Position numbers and translations under genes: made by a program
DNA from: Nitrospirota bacterium
GTDB taxonomy: Bacteria > Nitrospirota > RBG-16-64-22
Assembly (NCBI GenBank): GCA_016195465.1
Contig: JACPZO010000039.1
Span: forward strand, 1-33,131
Length of the DNA stretch: 33,131 nucleotides
Reading direction: 5' to 3'
Notes under the pieces: generated by a model
The model's input: the letters and a program-made list of their open reading frames with translations, nothing else
What the model was told of the DNA's origin: nothing
Database searches by the model: none
Shown here: positions 4,711-33,131 of the stretch, piece after piece
Position numbering within the stretch: the stretch's first letter is position 1
Layout of the letters: every line of letters starts with the position of its first letter

Positions 4711-4802
4711 CAGGCACAGAGGATTAAGGGCAGGCACAGAGGAAAAGCAAACCTCAAATGCAGGCACAGAGGAAAAGCAAACCTTAAGGGCAGGCACAAA
4801 GT
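4711..4802. repeat. Direct repeats with core CAGGCACAGAGG
   Basis: CAGGCACAGA starts at 4711, 4731 and 4761, with a variant CAGGCACAAA at 4791. From 4721 on the unit is about 30 bases and includes AAAAGCAAACCT. The core is the complement of the octamer repeated in the neighbouring 4816-4935 tract, so the two blocks face each other as an inverted pair in the cheZ-cheA gap. Confidence 0.7.
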
Positions 4803-4815
4803 TAGCCCTGGCTCG

Positions 4816-4935
4816 CTTTGTGCCTCTGTGCCTCTGTGCCTCTGTCCCTTTGTGCCTCTGTCCCTCTGTCCCTCTGTCCCTCTGTGCCTCTGTGCCTCTG
4901 CGCCTCTGTCCCTTTGTGCCTCTGTCCCTCTGTGC
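4816..4935. repeat. 15-unit octamer tract (CTCTGTGC / minus GCACAGAG)
   Basis: Exactly fifteen 8-base units in unbroken phase (variants CTCTGTGC, CTCTGTCC, CTTTGTGC, CTCTGCGC), ending at 4935. The next three bases (4936-4938) are the TAG stop of cheZ, so the tract abuts the stop codon with no gap. Confidence 0.9.
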
Positions 4936-5610
4936 CTAGCTCGCTCCAATCCCCGCGCTCTTTAGAATGTCGTCCACAAGGTCCTGCTTGATCTCGCTCT
5001 TCAGATAGGCGTCGTGAAGCTGGCCGATCATCTCGACCCGCTTCTGCCGGTCCGCGTCGTCCGCATGCTCTCCCGGCCGGAGCCCGAAGGAGAGGATGAG
5101 TTCCAGGATCTTCGCCTCGACCTCCTGAACCAGGGCGACGATCTTCTTGATCTTCTGCCCCGTCAGGTCCTGGAACGAGAGATTGGTCATGATCTCGATC
5201 AGCTTCCCCTTCGTCCGGTCGGTCGCGGCGTCGATCGCGTCCAGCGCCGGCAGGAGCCCGTCGCTCGACGAGGCCGAGGCCGCCCCGCGCGCGGCGGCCA
5301 GGTGCTTGCCCAGCGACTCCTGCTCGTCCAGGATTTCCTCGGTGAGGGAGAGGACCTTGTGCGTCGCCTCCTCCGTGGCGCGGGTGACGTCGGAGAGCTG
5401 TTGCGACGCCATGGGGATGTTCTTCGTCGTCTCCCGGACGGACGGCTCCAGGTGCTGGAGCGACATCCGGGTCTTGTTGATGTACTCGGCGAGCTGGGAC
5501 AGCTCCCCCTTGACCGTCACCGACAGCTCCCGGTAGAAGTCCCCTTCGGACATCGCCCGCGCGACTTCGACCAGTTCCTTGATCCCGTGACTCTCCTTCT
5601 CGTCCGGCAT
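4936..5610 (-). CDS. cheZ: CheY-P phosphatase
   Basis: CheZ speeds dephosphorylation of CheY-P and so ends the tumbling/reversal signal. It is all-helical. The signature LSFQDLTGQKIKKI (about 144-157) contains the equivalents of the E. coli catalytic pair, here D148 and Q152. The C-terminus (KQDLVDDILKSAG, about 208-220) matches the CheY-binding tail, preceded by a flexible acidic linker. The 224-residue length is near the E. coli protein. It lies directly before cheA and after cheY. The start at 5610 follows AGGGGG five bases upstream. The presence of CheZ is informative about lineage, since many phyla use CheC/CheX instead. Confidence 0.94.
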   Translation of the reverse strand: MPDEKESHGIKELVEVARAMSEGDFYRELSVTVKGELSQLAEYINKTRMSLQHLEPSVRETTKNIPMASQQLSDVTRATEEATHKVLSLTEEILDEQESLGKHLAAARGAASASSSDGLLPALDAIDAATDRTKGKLIEIMTNLSFQDLTGQKIKKIVALVQEVEAKILELILSFGLRPGEHADDADRQKRVEMIGQLHDAYLKSEIKQDLVDDILKSAGIGAS

Positions 5611-5654: not shown

Positions 5655-5726
5655 ATTCACCGATTCACCCATTCACCCATTCACCCATTCACCGATTCAC
5701 CAGCTTACCGATTCACCGATTCACCG
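5655..5726. repeat. GGTGAATN octamer tract, 9 units, after cheY
   Basis: Nine phased ATTCACCN units (one degenerate, GCTTACCG) in the cheY-cheZ gap, ending seven bases from the cheY TGA (5734-5736). Confidence 0.88.
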
Positions 5727-5733
5727 TTTCTTC

Positions 5734-10832: not shown

Positions 10833-10895
10833 TCTCAACCTTCGACTTTCGACATTCGACTGTCGACTTTCGACGCTGGATCCTGGACATCGGAC
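10833..10895. repeat. Heptamer tract (minus GTCGAAA-like) encoding a protein C-terminus
   Basis: Phased 7-mers: TCTCAAC, CTTCGAC, TTTCGAC, ATTCGAC, TGTCGAC, TTTCGAC, GCTGGAT, CCTGGAC, ATCGGAC. The TGA stop of the upstream gene (10835-10837) lies in the first unit, so about 14 C-terminal residues (VQDPASKVDSRMSKVEG region) are repeat-encoded. Confidence 0.8.
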
Positions 10896-14879: not shown

Positions 14880-14904
14880 CGCTCTTTAACCGTCCGTTTT
14901 GGCG

Positions 14905-15009
14905 TTCAGCATTCAGCTTCTAGCTTTTCAACCTTCGACTTTCAACTTTCAACTTTCAACTCTCAACTCTCAACTCCTCACTCTCAACTCCTCACTCCGA
15001 ACTCCTCGC
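14905..15009. repeat. 15-unit heptamer tract (TTTCAAC/TCTCAAC/TCCTCAC; minus GTTGAGA)
   Basis: The stretch divides into fifteen 7-mers without a slip: TTCAGCA, TTCAGCT, TCTAGCT, TTTCAAC, CTTCGAC, three TTTCAAC, two TCTCAAC, TCCTCAC, TCTCAAC, TCCTCAC, TCCGAAC, TCCTCGC. The TGA stop of the receiver gene (14992-14994) is inside, so its C-terminal residues (about ARSSE) are repeat-encoded. Confidence 0.88.
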
Positions 15010-15387
15010 TCCATCCTTCATTCCCTTCAGCGTCTCGTGGATCAGGCGCGCGGCTTCCGAGAAATCGGCCGCCTTCGGAAAAACGCCCGCGGCGCCCAGG
15101 GTCGTCGCCTGGCGGATCTTCTCGTCCGTCGCGAACGCCGTCACCATGATCACGGGCACATCCGGCCGAGCGGCCTTCAGTTTCCCGAGCGTCTCGATCC
15201 CGTCCATCCCGGGCATGAGGACGTCCAGGAAGACGACGTCGGGCGGCGACTGGACGACGGCCTCGAGCGCCTCCGCCCCGCTCGCCGCCTGCGCCACGTC
15301 GTACCCGTGGGCCATGAGGTAGAACCCCATCGTCTCCGAGTAGTCGGATTCGTCGTCGACCAGCAGGACACGGACCGGCCTCTCCAT
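14992..15387 (-). CDS. Single-domain response regulator
   Basis: A 131-residue stand-alone receiver: acidic pair D11/D12, phosphoacceptor D55 in VFLDVLMPGMDG, conserved Thr in MVTAFA and Lys in VFPKAAD. There is no output domain. It lies between a PAS kinase (upstream) and two further kinases (downstream), so it may shuttle phosphate among them. GGAG lies eight bases before ATG 15387. The last few residues are encoded by a heptamer repeat and are probably irrelevant to function. Confidence 0.9.
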   Translation of the reverse strand: MERPVRVLLVDDESDYSETMGFYLMAHGYDVAQAASGAEALEAVVQSPPDVVFLDVLMPGMDGIETLGKLKAARPDVPVIMVTAFATDEKIRQATTLGAAGVFPKAADFSEAARLIHETLKGMKDGARSSE

Positions 15388-15424: not shown

Positions 15425-15460
15425 GCAATCCGCAATCCGCAATTCGCAATTCGCAATTTC
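15425..15460. repeat. Heptamer tract (GCAATCC/GCAATTC; minus GGATTGC) abutting a stop codon
   Basis: Five 7-mers (GCAATCC twice, GCAATTC twice, GCAATTT) plus one base reach directly to the TAG stop at 15461-15463 of the upstream kinase. Confidence 0.8.
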
Positions 15461-19438: not shown

Positions 19439-19448
19439 TTTTGTTCCG

Positions 19449-19496
19449 ATTCACCGATTCACCGATTCACCGATTCACCCATTCACCGATTCACCG
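19449..19496. repeat. GGTGAATN octamer tract, 6 units, overlapping the flhG 3' end
   Basis: Six phased units. The flhG TGA (19475-19477) is inside, so the last residues (GESVNG) of FlhG are repeat-encoded. Confidence 0.88.
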
Positions 19497-20386: not shown

Positions 20387-20411
20387 CGAACCCTCCCACT
20401 CAGAAGCCGTA

Positions 20412-20502
20412 ATTCGTCATTTGTCACTCGTCATTCGTGACCCGTTATCCGTGCTGAGTTATTCATCCACCATTGACGATTGACTGTTGACCAATGACTG
20501 GG
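20412..20502. repeat. 13-unit heptamer tract (ATTCGTC / GACGATT types) overlapping the flhF 3' end
   Basis: Phased 7-mers: ATTCGTC, ATTTGTC, ACTCGTC, ATTCGTG, ACCCGTT, ATCCGTG, CTGAGTT, ATTCATC, CACCATT, GACGATT, GACTGTT, GACCAAT, GACTGGG. The flhF TAA stop (20459-20461) is inside, so about 14 residues (TQSLVNSQSSMVDE) at the FlhF C-terminus are repeat-encoded. Confidence 0.85.
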
Positions 20503-23880: not shown

Positions 23881-23901
23881 CACCCTTCCCCCTTCCCCCT
23901 T
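23881..23901. repeat. Short heptamer tract (CCCCCTT) touching the flhB stop
   Basis: CACCCTT, CCCCCTT, CCCCCTT; the last base is the first of the flhB TGA (23901-23903). On the mRNA the AAGGGGG/AAGGGTG units form the ribosome-binding region of flhA. Confidence 0.6.
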
Positions 23902-24971
23902 CAGCCCCTGCCCGCCTTCTTCTCCGAGCGGTACACATAAGCCAAGACCTCCGCCACCGTCTGGTACAGGGCGGCGGGGATCTCCCGGCCGATCTCGACC
24001 AGCTTGTGAATCGTCCGGGCGAGCGGCGGGTTCGAAACGACCGGCACGCCGGCGGCGCGCGCGGTATCGCGGATCCGCTCCGCGATCAGTCCCGCCCCCT
24101 TCGCCACGACGGTCGGCGCGCGCATCTCTCCGGCCTTGTACTGGAGCGCGACGGCGAAGTGCGTGGGGTTGGTGATGACGACGTCTGCCTTCGGGACCTG
24201 GGACATCATCCGCCGGCGGGCCGCCTGCATCTGGAGCGAGCGGATACGGCTCCTGATCAGCGGGTCCCCTTCCTGCTGGCGCTGTTCGTCCTTGATTTCC
24301 TGCTTCGTCATCCGAAGGTTCTTTTCGTAGTCGAAGCGCTGGTAGGCGTAGTCGAGCGCCGCCAGAATAATGAGGACGAGCGAGCAGGCGCCGAGGATCC
24401 TGAGCGTCACCCGTAGGAAGAAGAACGCGGTCGTCGCCGCGTCCGATTGGGCGAGGCCGGTCAGCTCCGGCAAGAGTCCCCGGACGGAGAGGTAGGCCGC
24501 GTACGAAAGGACGAAGATCTTCACGATCGACTTGGCGAGTTCCACGGCCGCCGTGAGAGAGACCAGCCTCTTGAACCCGGCGATGGGGTTGATGCGGCTC
24601 CCCTTCGGGACCAGCGGCTCGCCCGTCCACAGAAAGCCGATCTGCGCGACGTTCGCCGTCACGCCCGCCAGCAGGGCGGCGCCGAGGAGCGGCGCGAGGA
24701 TGAACCCGACTTGGGACGTTGTCACGATCAGCATCTCGTGAAGCGACCGCGTCGTGAGGGCAACGGTCCCGGCGCCGTCCAGGATCCGCCGGGTGAGGTC
24801 CGCCATTCCCGAGCCCAGGCCGGCCGCGCCCATGGCCAGGGCGAGAAAGGAGGCGATGAGGACGGCCGCGGAGCCGACTTCCCGGCTCCTGGCAACCTGC
24901 CCCTTCTGCCGTGCCTCCGAGCGCCGTTTGCCGGTCGCTCGTTCGGTTTTTTGGTCGCGGTCTTCAGCCAC
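23901..24971 (-). CDS. flhB: Flagellar export switch protein FlhB
   Basis: Substrate-specificity switch of the flagellar export gate, changing from hook to filament export together with FliK. The N-terminal cytoplasmic segment is basic (ERATGKRRSEARQKGQVARS). Four membrane helices follow (about 33-55, 85-112, 145-163, 182-208). The cytoplasmic domain contains the self-cleavage motif N268-P269-T270-H271 in VVITNPTHFAVAL. The 356-residue length is typical. The start is GTG 24971 with GGGGAG about eight bases upstream. The 221-base gap to fliR is unusually long for this operon and is filled with repeats. Confidence 0.96.
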   Translation of the reverse strand: MAEDRDQKTERATGKRRSEARQKGQVARSREVGSAAVLIASFLALAMGAAGLGSGMADLTRRILDGAGTVALTTRSLHEMLIVTTSQVGFILAPLLGAALLAGVTANVAQIGFLWTGEPLVPKGSRINPIAGFKRLVSLTAAVELAKSIVKIFVLSYAAYLSVRGLLPELTGLAQSDAATTAFFFLRVTLRILGACSLVLIILAALDYAYQRFDYEKNLRMTKQEIKDEQRQQEGDPLIRSRIRSLQMQAARRRMMSQVPKADVVITNPTHFAVALQYKAGEMRAPTVVAKGAGLIAERIRDTARAAGVPVVSNPPLARTIHKLVEIGREIPAALYQTVAEVLAYVYRSEKKAGRG

Positions 24972-24988
24972 GCTTAGCGCTCCCCATG

Positions 24989-25012
24989 ATTCACCGATTC
25001 ACCCTTTCACCC
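24989..25012. repeat. GGTGAATN octamers upstream of flhB, 3 units
   Basis: ATTCACCG, ATTCACCC, TTTCACCC, about 20 bases upstream of the flhB start and adjoining the GC-rich inverted pair. Confidence 0.75.
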
Positions 25013-25015
25013 ACC

Positions 25016-25108
25016 CCCCCCTTTGTAAGGAGGGGCCGGGGGAGGTAGAAGCAGCCGTCGAACGGAGGGCTTCTACCCCACCCAACCTCCCCTTACAAAG
25101 GGGAGGAG
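25016..25108. repeat. Two inverted copies of a GC-rich hairpin element
   Basis: The left copy (about 25016-25051, CCCCTTTGTAAGGAGGGG...GGTAGAAGC) and the right copy (about 25069-25105) are reverse complements at most positions over about 35 bases, separated by about 17. Each copy also has its own small stem. A third copy lies at 19404-19438. Together they could fold into a long cruciform or mRNA hairpin between fliR and flhB. Confidence 0.75.
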
Positions 25109-25118
25109 TGGTTTTCCT

Positions 25119-25206
25119 ATTCACCTATTCACCTATTCACCTATTCACCGATTCACCTATTCACCGATTCACCGATTCACCGATTCACCGATTCACCGAT
25201 TCACCG
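25119..25206. repeat. GGTGAATN octamer tract, 11 units, overlapping the fliR 3' end
   Basis: Eleven perfectly phased ATTCACCN units, the longest of the family here. The fliR TGA (25193-25195) is inside, so the FliR C-terminus (ESVNR) is repeat-encoded. Confidence 0.9.
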
Positions 25207-25975
25207 ATTCCAGGATCGCCGCGCTGTCGCGCAGGGCGCCCATCAAGGCCGTCTCCACGACCGGCCCGAAGAAAGGGAGAGTCGCGCCGAGGACGACGAG
25301 CCCCAGGGCGATCGTGATTGGAAATCCCACGATCAGAAGGTTGATCTGCGGCACCGTCCGCGCCACGACGCCCAGCACCACGTTCGCGAGGAAGATGGCC
25401 GCCACGACGGGAGCGGAGAGCTTGAGTCCCAGTCGGAAGATTTCCCCCCCCGCCTGGACCAGGTCTCCCGCGATCCCGGACGAAATGCCGGCCCCCAGAA
25501 GAGGAAGGCTCTTGAACGAATGGCCCACGAGCCGGAGGAACTCGTGGTGGGCGTTGGTCGCCAGGAACAAGAGGAACGCAAAGAGCATCTGGAGTTGGCC
25601 GACGAGCGACACTTGGGCGTTGTTCTGCGGGTCGATCGTGCTCACGATCCCGAACCCCATGTTGAACCCCATGAGCGTTCCGGACAGTTCGATCCCGGCG
25701 AAGACCGCGCGGACCATGAGTCCCAGCGCCGCGCCGACGAGGACCTCGCCGAGAAGTCCGACGACGACCGTCGCGGGCTCCGACATGAACCCCGGCGGCA
25801 GGGGCGGAACGGTCGGGAAGAGGACGACCGCAACGGCCAGGGCGAGGGCCGCCTTGACCCTGACCGGGACCGAGCGCGCGCCCATGAGGGGAATCGCCGC
25901 GATCAGGATCGACACCCGCGCGAAGATCAGCCCGAGCCGGAAAAAACCTTCAAGGGGAAGCGTCAGAGAGAGCAT
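25193..25975 (-). CDS. fliR: Flagellar export gate protein FliR
   Basis: Part of the FliP5-FliQ4-FliR1 export pore. It is an all-helical membrane protein of 260 residues with about six hydrophobic segments and the conserved stretch MGFNMGFGIVSTIDPQNN (about 102-119), typical of FliR/SctT. The start ATG 25975 lies 13 bases after the fliQ stop. A weak GGTGAAGG precedes it, overlapping the fliQ end, so coupling is likely. The last five codons come from the octamer tract. Confidence 0.95.
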   Translation of the reverse strand: MLSLTLPLEGFFRLGLIFARVSILIAAIPLMGARSVPVRVKAALALAVAVVLFPTVPPLPPGFMSEPATVVVGLLGEVLVGAALGLMVRAVFAGIELSGTLMGFNMGFGIVSTIDPQNNAQVSLVGQLQMLFAFLLFLATNAHHEFLRLVGHSFKSLPLLGAGISSGIAGDLVQAGGEIFRLGLKLSAPVVAAIFLANVVLGVVARTVPQINLLIVGFPITIALGLVVLGATLPFFGPVVETALMGALRDSAAILESVNR

Positions 25976-28217: not shown

Positions 28218-28244
28218 GCGCCTTCCCTTCTCTTGCCTGTTCCC

Positions 28245-28276
28245 ATTCACCGATTCACCCATTCACCGATTCACCG
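28245..28276. repeat. GGTGAATN octamer tract, 4 units, after fliN
   Basis: Four phased units ending eight bases from the fliN TGA (28285-28287). Confidence 0.85.
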
Positions 28277-28284
28277 GTTGGCCA

Positions 28285-28716
28285 TCACGCAAGCTGTTTG
28301 ATTCTTTCGATCGGGCTCACGATGTCCGTCAGGCGGATCCCAAACTTATCGTTCACGACGACGACCTCTCCGCGGGCCACCAGTTTCTCGTTCACGTAGA
28401 CCTCCATCGGCTCCCCCGCGAGTTTGTCGAGCTCGATCACCGAGCCCTGGCCGAGCTGGATCAGGTCCTTGATTACCATCCGGGTCCGGCCGATCTCCAC
28501 CGACACGTGGAGAGGGAGGTCGAGGACGAAGTCGATATTCCCCGGCGCCCCGGCCGCCTCCGTGGAAGGGGCGATCGGCGCGAACGCCGCCGGCCGAAGC
28601 TGCGGCTGGGGGGATTTGGGGGCCTCGGTTGCGGGCGGCGCGGGGCTTTCCGAAACCTGGGCCTCCCAGGCCGCGGCCAAGTCTTTTTCCTTCTCGCTCA
28701 CCGATTCATTCGCCAT
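28285..28716 (-). CDS. fliN: Flagellar C-ring switch protein FliN
   Basis: C-ring component that takes part in switching and docks the export ATPase complex. The C-terminal SpoA domain (about 65-140) contains LPLHVSVEIGRTRMVIKDLIQLGQGSVIELDKLAGEP and the end VSPIERIKQL. The N-terminal 60 residues are a Pro/Ala-rich linker of low complexity. It overlaps the fliM end by 11 bases. The first codons (MANESVSE) include GAATCGGTGAG, which resembles one octamer unit. Confidence 0.96.
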   Translation of the reverse strand: MANESVSEKEKDLAAAWEAQVSESPAPPATEAPKSPQPQLRPAAFAPIAPSTEAAGAPGNIDFVLDLPLHVSVEIGRTRMVIKDLIQLGQGSVIELDKLAGEPMEVYVNEKLVARGEVVVVNDKFGIRLTDIVSPIERIKQLA

Positions 28717-29777: not shown

Positions 29778-29849
29778 ATTCGCCGATTCACCGATTCACC
29801 CATTCACCCATTCACCCATTCACCTACTCACCTACTCACCGATTCACCG
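29778..29849. repeat. GGTGAATN octamer tract, 9 units, after fliL
   Basis: Nine phased units (including ATTCGCCG, ACTCACCT, ACTCACCG), ending four bases from the fliL TGA (29854-29856). Confidence 0.88.
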
Positions 29850-32700: not shown

Positions 32701-32772
32701 ATTCACCGATTCACCCATTCACCGATTCACCGATTCACCGATTCACCGATTCACCCATTCACCGATTCACCA
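32701..32772. repeat. GGTGAATN octamer tract, 9 units, after fliK
   Basis: Nine phased units ending eight bases from the fliK TGA (32781-32783). Confidence 0.9.
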
Positions 32773-32780
32773 TTCTCCGT

Positions 32781-33131
32781 TCAAACCCTGATGTCGATTC
32801 CCGTTCCCGCGGAACGGGACGCTTCCACAAGCGTCGATTCTTCCGTCGCCGCGGCGTAGTCGGCGGACTCTCCCGACGCCCAAGCCAGGGCCTCCCTTTC
32901 CCGCGGACTGCCCTGTTCCCCTCCCACGAGGACGGTGAACTGGTCTACCGTAAATCCCTGCTCCCTCAGCGCGTCGCGGAGCTGTTGTCCGCCCGCCTCC
33001 AGGACCGCCCGCGACAGGGGGTTGTCCGTCACGAACGTCGCCCGGACCGACTGGTCGTCCACAAAGAGCGTCACCCTTACGGAGCCGAGCGACTCGGGAA
33101 CAAGCTGGAGACGGACTTCCGTCGTCCCGGC
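32781..33131 (-). CDS. fliK: C-terminal part of hook-length control protein FliK (cut by window edge)
   Basis: FliK measures hook length and switches FlhB. Only the last 116 residues are in the window; the frame continues past the right edge. The sequence EVRLQLVPESLGSVRVTLFV then SRAVLEAGGQQLRDALREQGF is the typical C-terminal hook-length domain, where L.P..LG.V..... is the family signature. The short low-complexity tail ends in GIDIRV. It is followed by flgD and flgE, which supports the call. Confidence 0.88.
   Translation of the reverse strand, partial: AGTTEVRLQLVPESLGSVRVTLFVDDQSVRATFVTDNPLSRAVLEAGGQQLRDALREQGFTVDQFTVLVGGEQGSPREREALAWASGESADYAAATEESTLVEASRSAGTGIDIRV

Follow-up and report, generated by a model that had tools for sequence, protein, structure and literature searches.

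The six heptamer tracts of the window, that is, of the whole 33,131-nucleotide stretch analysed here, are with a probability of roughly one half members, or single-arm forms, of dispersed, mobile and rearranging hairpin/array repeats which persist at gene 3' ends. The main structure of these repeats is inverted pairing, a feature absent from the original prediction, which had described tandem words of seven nucleotides anchored on stop codons. The window is contig C68 of a draft genome of 2.60 Mb (198 contigs, 66% GC) and carries chemotaxis and flagellar genes, every one of them called on the minus strand. The best match of its FlhA belongs to the Deltaproteobacteria SM23_61 MAG, with 60% amino-acid identity; hence the host is not cyanobacterial, and the expectation of a flagellated, non-cyanobacterial genome was borne out.

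Autocorrelation is strongest at lag 7 in all six tracts (0.54, 0.70, 0.72, 0.90, 0.60 and 0.93) and TRF recovers the same six arrays, which confirms the period of seven first proposed for them. When tested against Markov regenerations five tracts gave p<0.0005, and the one at 23881-23901, with merely three copies, is the weakest of the six and marginal (p=0.012). As had also been claimed, five of the six contain or touch a stop codon, in each case that of the minus-strand gene ending there (10835, 14992, 15461, 20459 and 23901); the exception, 146-231, neither contains nor touches a stop codon and no gene end was identified there. On the minus strand, the array at 10833-10895, whose word GTCGAAA belongs to the GTTGAAN family, overlaps the called end of an HD-domain gene (stop 10835), the GAATTGC/GGATTGC array at 15425-15460 is a single arm lying immediately past the stop of a histidine kinase gene (15461), and three copies of GGAAGGG at 23881-23902 fill the flhB-flhA junction at the called flhB stop (23901). 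A further array, at 14899-15012 on the minus strand, stands at the called 3' end of a response-regulator gene (stop 14992) with a lag-7 autocorrelation of 0.72. Between 14905 and 15009 it holds phase over 15-16 units, in line with the up to 15 originally counted, and on the coding strand its word drifts from GGAGTTC through GAGAGTT, GAAAGTT and GAAGGTT to GAAGCTG; adjacent units there differ at 1.9 positions versus 3.4 after unit shuffling (p<=0.001).

The two remaining tracts, to which no single strand is assigned, are inverted pairs, and the other heptamer tracts of the window resemble single arms. At 146-231, folding shows two inverted arms of the GTCAATC family, at about 146-183 and 199-231, which enclose the GC-rich loop GGCCACAAGAGCGGCC. 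At 20408-20502, according to TRF and gene calls, a GTCAATC-family arm followed on the coding strand by a GAATGAC arm lies astride the flhF stop (20459). The first of these arms (20459-20502) encodes the C-terminal codons of FlhF, so that the repeat has contributed protein sequence.

The octamer CGGTGAAT, read on the coding strand, is found at about ten junctions of the window and has a larger presence there than the heptamers. Its TRF arrays, all on the minus strand, lie at 400-430 (MCP gene, stop 425), 1532-1565 (adjoining the cheB stop, 1570), 2736-2814 (spanning the cheA stop, 2785), 5655-5730 (gene stop 5734), 19446-19496 (spanning the stop of a flhG-like gene, 19475), 25119-25210 (spanning the fliR stop, 25193), 28242-28276 (adjoining the stop at 28285), 29778-29849 (stop 29854) and 32701-32783 (spanning the stop at 32781), where the gene ends come from gene calls; the junction at 5655-5730 was also compared with its ortholog. 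Past the cheZ stop (4936), TRF and folding find an array of another octamer, AGGCACAG, with a complementary arm at 4729-4798, hence the region 4729-4937, which has no assigned strand, is an inverted pair. The fliR array is followed by a CTCCCCTTTGTAAGGGGAGG...CCCCTCCTTACAAAGGAGGGG hairpin (24956-25207), and array and hairpin occur together again at locus L010 (2858-3121), the two regions being 92% identical over 193 bp.

The genome-wide distribution was examined in 814 kb of sequence in stretches, 461 kb of which came from contigs not chosen by repeat. In the unselected contigs there are 6.1 arrays of period 7 and 5.7 of period 8 per 100 kb, compared to 0 and 0.12 in Markov-3 controls, and the search of periods proposed beforehand thus returned sharp peaks at 7 and 8 in the 814-kb sample. 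Genome-wide, such arrays between neighbouring genes number in the hundreds. Period-12 tandem repeats, possibly coding repeats, were observed in unselected G000 contigs at a similar density (6.3 per 100 kb versus 0.6 in the control). With genes called by a simple codon-based caller, which agrees with Pfam-supported genes, only 9 arrays of period 7 or 8 fall in 697 kb of coding sequence versus 154 in 101 kb of spacer. Their density is 0.63-1.05 per kb in aligned and convergent spacers versus 0.06 and 0.19 per kb in divergent ones, a 7-fold depletion of the latter (p=1e-7).

Between aligned genes, arrays lie closer to the upstream stop, touching it in 36 cases and the next start in 5 (p=8e-7), so that the enrichment at 3' ends for which a test had been suggested is strong. 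Anchoring on stop codons as such holds genome-wide for one class only. Octamers favour stops (26 contacts, 16.6 expected), whereas heptamers touch them about as often as random placement within the same short spacers predicts (10 versus 8.8) and touch the next start once versus 8.6 times expected; the heptamer signal consists largely in keeping away from that start. The presence of stop codons within the words was considered as a universal cause of their orientation and rejected, since the octamer fits and the heptamers do not: a stop trinucleotide is found in 54 of 79 octamer words in sense versus 5 in antisense, and in 20 versus 14 of 57 for heptamers.

Heptamer arrays often consist of a word, a loop and the reverse complement of the word. 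Where sense and antisense arms share a spacer, both belong to one family in 58 cases and to different families in 10, and a gene-blind scan found 59 pairs in which the word comes first versus 2 in which its reverse complement does. As a word-first pair is identical when read on either strand, the polarity says nothing about the direction of transcription. The predicted folds are long imperfect hairpins in which the cores pair and the free bases of the units are unmatched between arms. Octamer arrays are mostly single-armed (106 sense spacers, 12 paired). Matching of arms beyond the shared core was considered and rejected: in AATTGNA, GTCAATC and CGGTGAAT an arm pairs with its own partner no better than with a permuted one, and for TCAGCNN a first test (p=0.02) gave p=0.9 with tighter arm definitions.

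Comparable placement is known from the G-rich heptamers of Xanthomonas (GGGAATC) and Nostoc (GGGGA(C/T)T), studied as G-quadruplexes by Rehm et al. 2015 (PMC4692102). Those heptamers are intergenic, lie between aligned ORFs, are under-represented in genes and divergent spacers, stand in sense near stops and in antisense near the next start, and are mostly retained in orthologous contexts; in Xanthomonas they form 70-75 convergent inverted pairs per genome (PMC4692102). The present arrays share with both the period of 7, the placement between aligned ORFs, the scarcity in genes and divergent spacers, the position of sense words near stops and of antisense words near the following start, and the retention in most orthologous contexts, and with Xanthomonas the convergent inverted pairs, here with the word-first polarity given above. 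Unlike in Xanthomonas and Nostoc, many families occur in one genome, no G-tract is needed, a period of 8 is found too, and loops are seen inverted and shared between different loci. That the arrays are G-quadruplex repeats of the GGGAATC and GGGGATT type, as placement and pairing could suggest, is thus an explanation to which we give almost no weight and which is refuted for this genome, because AATTGNA, TCAGCNN, GTCAATC and CGGTGAAT have no run of three G and hence form no canonical quadruplex. The same placement without G-tracts also means that the placement rule does not need them.

The main word families are CGGTGAAT, AGGCACAG, AATTGNA, TCAGCNN, GTCAATC and GTTGAAN, and each of them recurs. 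The words had been taken to be specific to their locus, and this is so for GGATTGC/GAATTGC and GGAAGGG, found at one place each within the sample; most of the others belong to families recurring at many loci. With two units taken as anchor, the unit that follows has, in AATTGNA, TCAGCNN and CGGTGAAT, conserved core positions and one or two that are nearly free, the latter with 0.04-0.34 bits of information and the other positions mostly with 0.5-1.8. At the free positions the identity of adjacent units is about that of units from different arrays (0.13/0.13, 0.02/0.08, 0.34/0.32 and 0.40/0.35), and in 80 arrays of at least 6 units from the genus adjacent units are no closer than shuffled ones (p=0.5-0.7). 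The free bases keep no memory of the adjacent unit, therefore slippage by one unit does not keep the core constant. Stepwise drift, as if each word were copied from its neighbour with errors, consequently describes 14905-15009 but not these arrays as a group, and neighbour-to-neighbour copying is not supported as a general process. Some block copying of two units is seen: at lag two, identity at free bases is 0.67 in AATTG (0.34 at lag one), with a smaller excess in the octamer (0.48). In the AATTG arrays of the genus sample copying seems to run in blocks of 14 nt.

In form the arrays do resemble cyanobacterial STRR, as had been pointed out, being head-to-tail 7-nt arrays, intergenic and above chance; they differ from STRR and long-SSR heptanucleotides in that the host is not cyanobacterial and, 14905-15009 excepted, adjacent units are not the most alike. 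One could therefore regard them as simple long SSRs (STRR/LSSR), made by replication slippage and cleared by selection from genes and promoters. Heptamers are described as dominant among bacterial SSRs and a slippage model has been proposed for them (Mrazek 2007, as cited in passages of PMC4679880 and PMC4692102), copy number differs between orthologous arrays here (pairs 74 and 106), the copying at lag 2 involves two units (14/16 nt), and the drift in 14905-15009 fits copying from the neighbour. However, slippage alone cannot account for identical words at unrelated loci numbering in the hundreds, the free bases of adjacent units are about as alike as those of random units, and inverted pairing has a fixed polarity, and we consider this explanation unlikely.

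Orthologous junctions in the same genus bear on how the arrays came to be where they are. The octamer CGGTGAAT is common to two same-genus genomes and almost absent from 38 other relatives searched. No FlhA ortholog was found in the same-genus genomes G001 and G002, though both have CheA-like genes; hence, of the window's junctions, the comparison covered those of the che genes and not the flagellar ones. Flagella may be missing or unassembled in G001 and G002.

At 133 orthologous junctions (median protein identity between genomes 90-93%), arrays are present on both sides in 25, and in 5 of these 25 the words differ (pairs 62, 63, 110, 111 and 127). Two of the five are che junctions of the window: the G002 ortholog of the cheZ junction (4729-4937) carries a TGAATAGG octamer instead, and that of the junction at 5655-5730 holds a TCAGCNN-type heptamer hairpin. 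Given 35 and 33 occupied junctions of the 133, about 8.7 doubly occupied ones are expected from independence, and the five different-word cases lie within this number, so no special mechanism is needed for them. The comparison of sister genomes that had been proposed to look for word replacement thus found different words at five orthologous junctions, and site-directed replacement was rejected, since independent gain would give as many. That orthologous junctions share words more often than expected reflects common descent.

Furthermore, two orthologous junctions, L039/L197 (97%, 78 nt) and L019/L200 (87%, 135 nt), carry their loops in opposite orientations. The same or similar loops occur, in both orientations, at loci which appear non-orthologous, as judged from best-hit tables of partial genomes: L010, L017 and L189 (L029 by eye), L039/L184 and L197/L202. 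Many other loops have nothing in common with each other. From its sequence, L010 looks like a chimera with an L039-type outer arm around an L017-type loop. At pair 28 one species has the entire unit and the other lacks it, and no target-site duplication was seen in this sole clean presence/absence case. Inverted loops together with the recurrence of loops at unrelated loci suggest that whole units move.

As these are draft genomes, assembly error at inverted repeats is a possible source of the loop inversions. More broadly, all of the arrays might be artefacts of assembly or chance, given a draft of 198 contigs in which loop inversion in particular could be mis-assembly between inverted arms. 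This is very improbable, as the arrays exceed Markov controls about 50-fold or more and the same pattern is seen in three separate assemblies within the genus as well as in other families; at the inverted loops, moreover, the arms are imperfect, which makes mis-assembly less likely.

Concerning an enzyme for such movement, nine matches to Y1 transposase (Y1_Tnp) were found in three genomes, and none of the six loci fetched had arrays in their short flanks (0.1-1.5 kb a side), so that a Y1 (RAYT) gene flanked by the repeat, as in REPIN-RAYT pairs, was not seen there. Reverse transcriptase was rejected as the copier because its match is in G000 only, whereas G001 and G002 carry arrays too. REPIN and MITE-type repeats are short non-coding inverted-repeat units, dispersed extragenically and with fixed arm polarity. 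The short palindromic units described here are likewise dispersed as inverted pairs; unlike in dispersed palindromes of the REPIN and MITE type (e.g. PMC3116915), their arms are tandem heptads of variable length, and no associated transposase was found in the flanks seen.

Three other dispersed repeats were observed alongside. A MITE-like element of ~160 bp, bounded by the terminal inverted repeats TAGCAGGCTGCTGAAAAAC...TTTTTCAGCATCCTGCTAG, has several copies in G000 spacers (e.g. L001:7579-8072, L006:4934-5349, L033:11594-11906 and L042:18116-18395) and, unlike the heptamer units, lies in both divergent and aligned spacers. Another inverted-repeat family, CTAGCAGGTTGCGGAAAAAGTC...TTTTTCCGCAGCCTGCTAG, of about 150 bp, is found at L003:3390-3595, L011:4437-4639, L014:18708-18931 and L032:3722-4379. 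Finally, a palindromic repeat of 117 bp, GTAGGTTGGGTTAG...CTAACCCAACCTAC, is 99% identical across loci (L025:5775-6008, L025:8977-9201 and L056:10623-10975, at the last between two AATTGNA arrays).

Beyond the genus, TCAGCNN occurs in 60 of 197 genomes of the phylum (32 of 96 genera), the reversed pattern used as a control giving almost no matches, and AATTGNA triplets in 16 of 246 phylum genomes. In another family of the phylum (three genomes, loci chosen for AATTGNA) period 7 dominates; sense arms of AATTGNA begin there 13-78 bp past a stop, and antisense arms, all but one, are 13-84 bp ahead of the following start. The space from ORF to ORF is usually taken up by the hairpin in the case of TCAGCNN (20 fetched loci, partly picked for paired hits). 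A further word, GTTCTAN, is found in the same layout in Geotalea toluenoxydans JCM 15764 (L066, 8310-8420 and 15860-16010).

These observations bring in the strongest rival, in which the heptads are a functional element kept by selection, either as binding sites or as an RNA 3' hairpin serving mRNA ends, transcription or the nucleoid. Its strength comes from units whose fixed core and free bases keep one register from genus to genus, which is hard to obtain by copying alone: some positions of the unit are nearly fixed and one or two free, alike across loci and genera. Moreover, in distant genera the hairpins occupy the junction between the stop and the following gene, and the same word is kept at many orthologous junctions.

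According to the main-text passages of PMC2700814 and PMC2996986, tandem repeats of the heptanucleotides GGGACCG and MTYCTGA and of the word TCTCCGTS[Y], about eight letters long, occur in Geobacter metallireducens and G. bemidjiensis, several multicopy sequences being paired on opposite strands and many intergenic; intergenic direct repeats of 6-42 nt are given for Geobacter in PMC2996986. The paired heptamer arrays of G. metallireducens were published as 'predicted global regulator binding sites' (PMC2700814), a point in favour of a functional element. Geobacter, possibly of the same phylum as the window, thus resembles the present case in its paired tandem 7-/8-mers; its families are described there separately, as putative regulator sites, in single genomes, and the main-text passages hold no fixed-core/free-base rule, 3'-end statistics or phylum survey. 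Two further systems are more distant. In the P6b stem of the Nostoc tRNA-Leu intron degenerate heptanucleotide repeats pair into a hairpin of variable length (PMC3488679, in a passage citing Costa 2002), but this is one intron stem of one gene, whereas the hairpins here are intergenic and dispersed. The TAACTGA direct repeats of Beggiatoaceae are intergenic, have stop codons in all frames and are patchy across phyla (PMC4679880); they consist of a single word and lie mainly just before start codons, whereas the present arrays follow stops.

Against a functional element, the words vary among junctions, sometimes even among orthologous ones, presence or absence differs between close species, and no Rfam match at gathering score was obtained in the window. 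Intrinsic termination in particular is unlikely: inspection of the folds found no T-run after the stems, so that they do not have the GC-rich stem plus T-run of an intrinsic terminator, and the arrays stand inside a long same-strand run of che and flagellar genes. A functional element is hence a serious possibility, though not one that we would favour.

The reading that we prefer, mobile and rearranging hairpin/array repeats, may be pictured as follows. An arm consists of tandem units, 7 or 8 nt long, in which the core is fixed and one or two bases are free, and the complete form is a word, a loop and the reverse complement, foldable as an imperfect hairpin which fills the junction between two genes. 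Units would be copied to new loci by a putative copying enzyme, and complementary arms would mediate rearrangement, that is, inversion and exchange of loops and gain or loss of two-unit blocks. Selection would then let them persist almost only at gene 3' ends, since in that position they would leave reading frames, promoters and starts undisturbed. Such hairpins presumably form in the cell as well.

Bacterial heptamer repeats are already known; slippage, G-quadruplexes or word-specific regulators were invoked to account for them, in each case on the basis of one word and of one or a few genomes. Here a single placement rule and architecture hold for several unrelated words in one genome and across the phylum. 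As some of these words are spread over dozens of genera, no account that depends on one particular sequence can be general. We put forward, only tentatively, that these are phylum-wide junction hairpins with a fixed core of 5-6 nt plus free bases, the cores paired and the free bases unpaired, in which the core would be a recognition motif and the word would be interchangeable between lineages, and which, as imperfect, loop-flipping mobile units, might have a role at the 3' ends of mRNAs or in the nucleoid at gene junctions. With loops flipped and shared between sister species, the way in which the repeats move becomes directly testable, and the units could mislead gene-end annotation and assembly.
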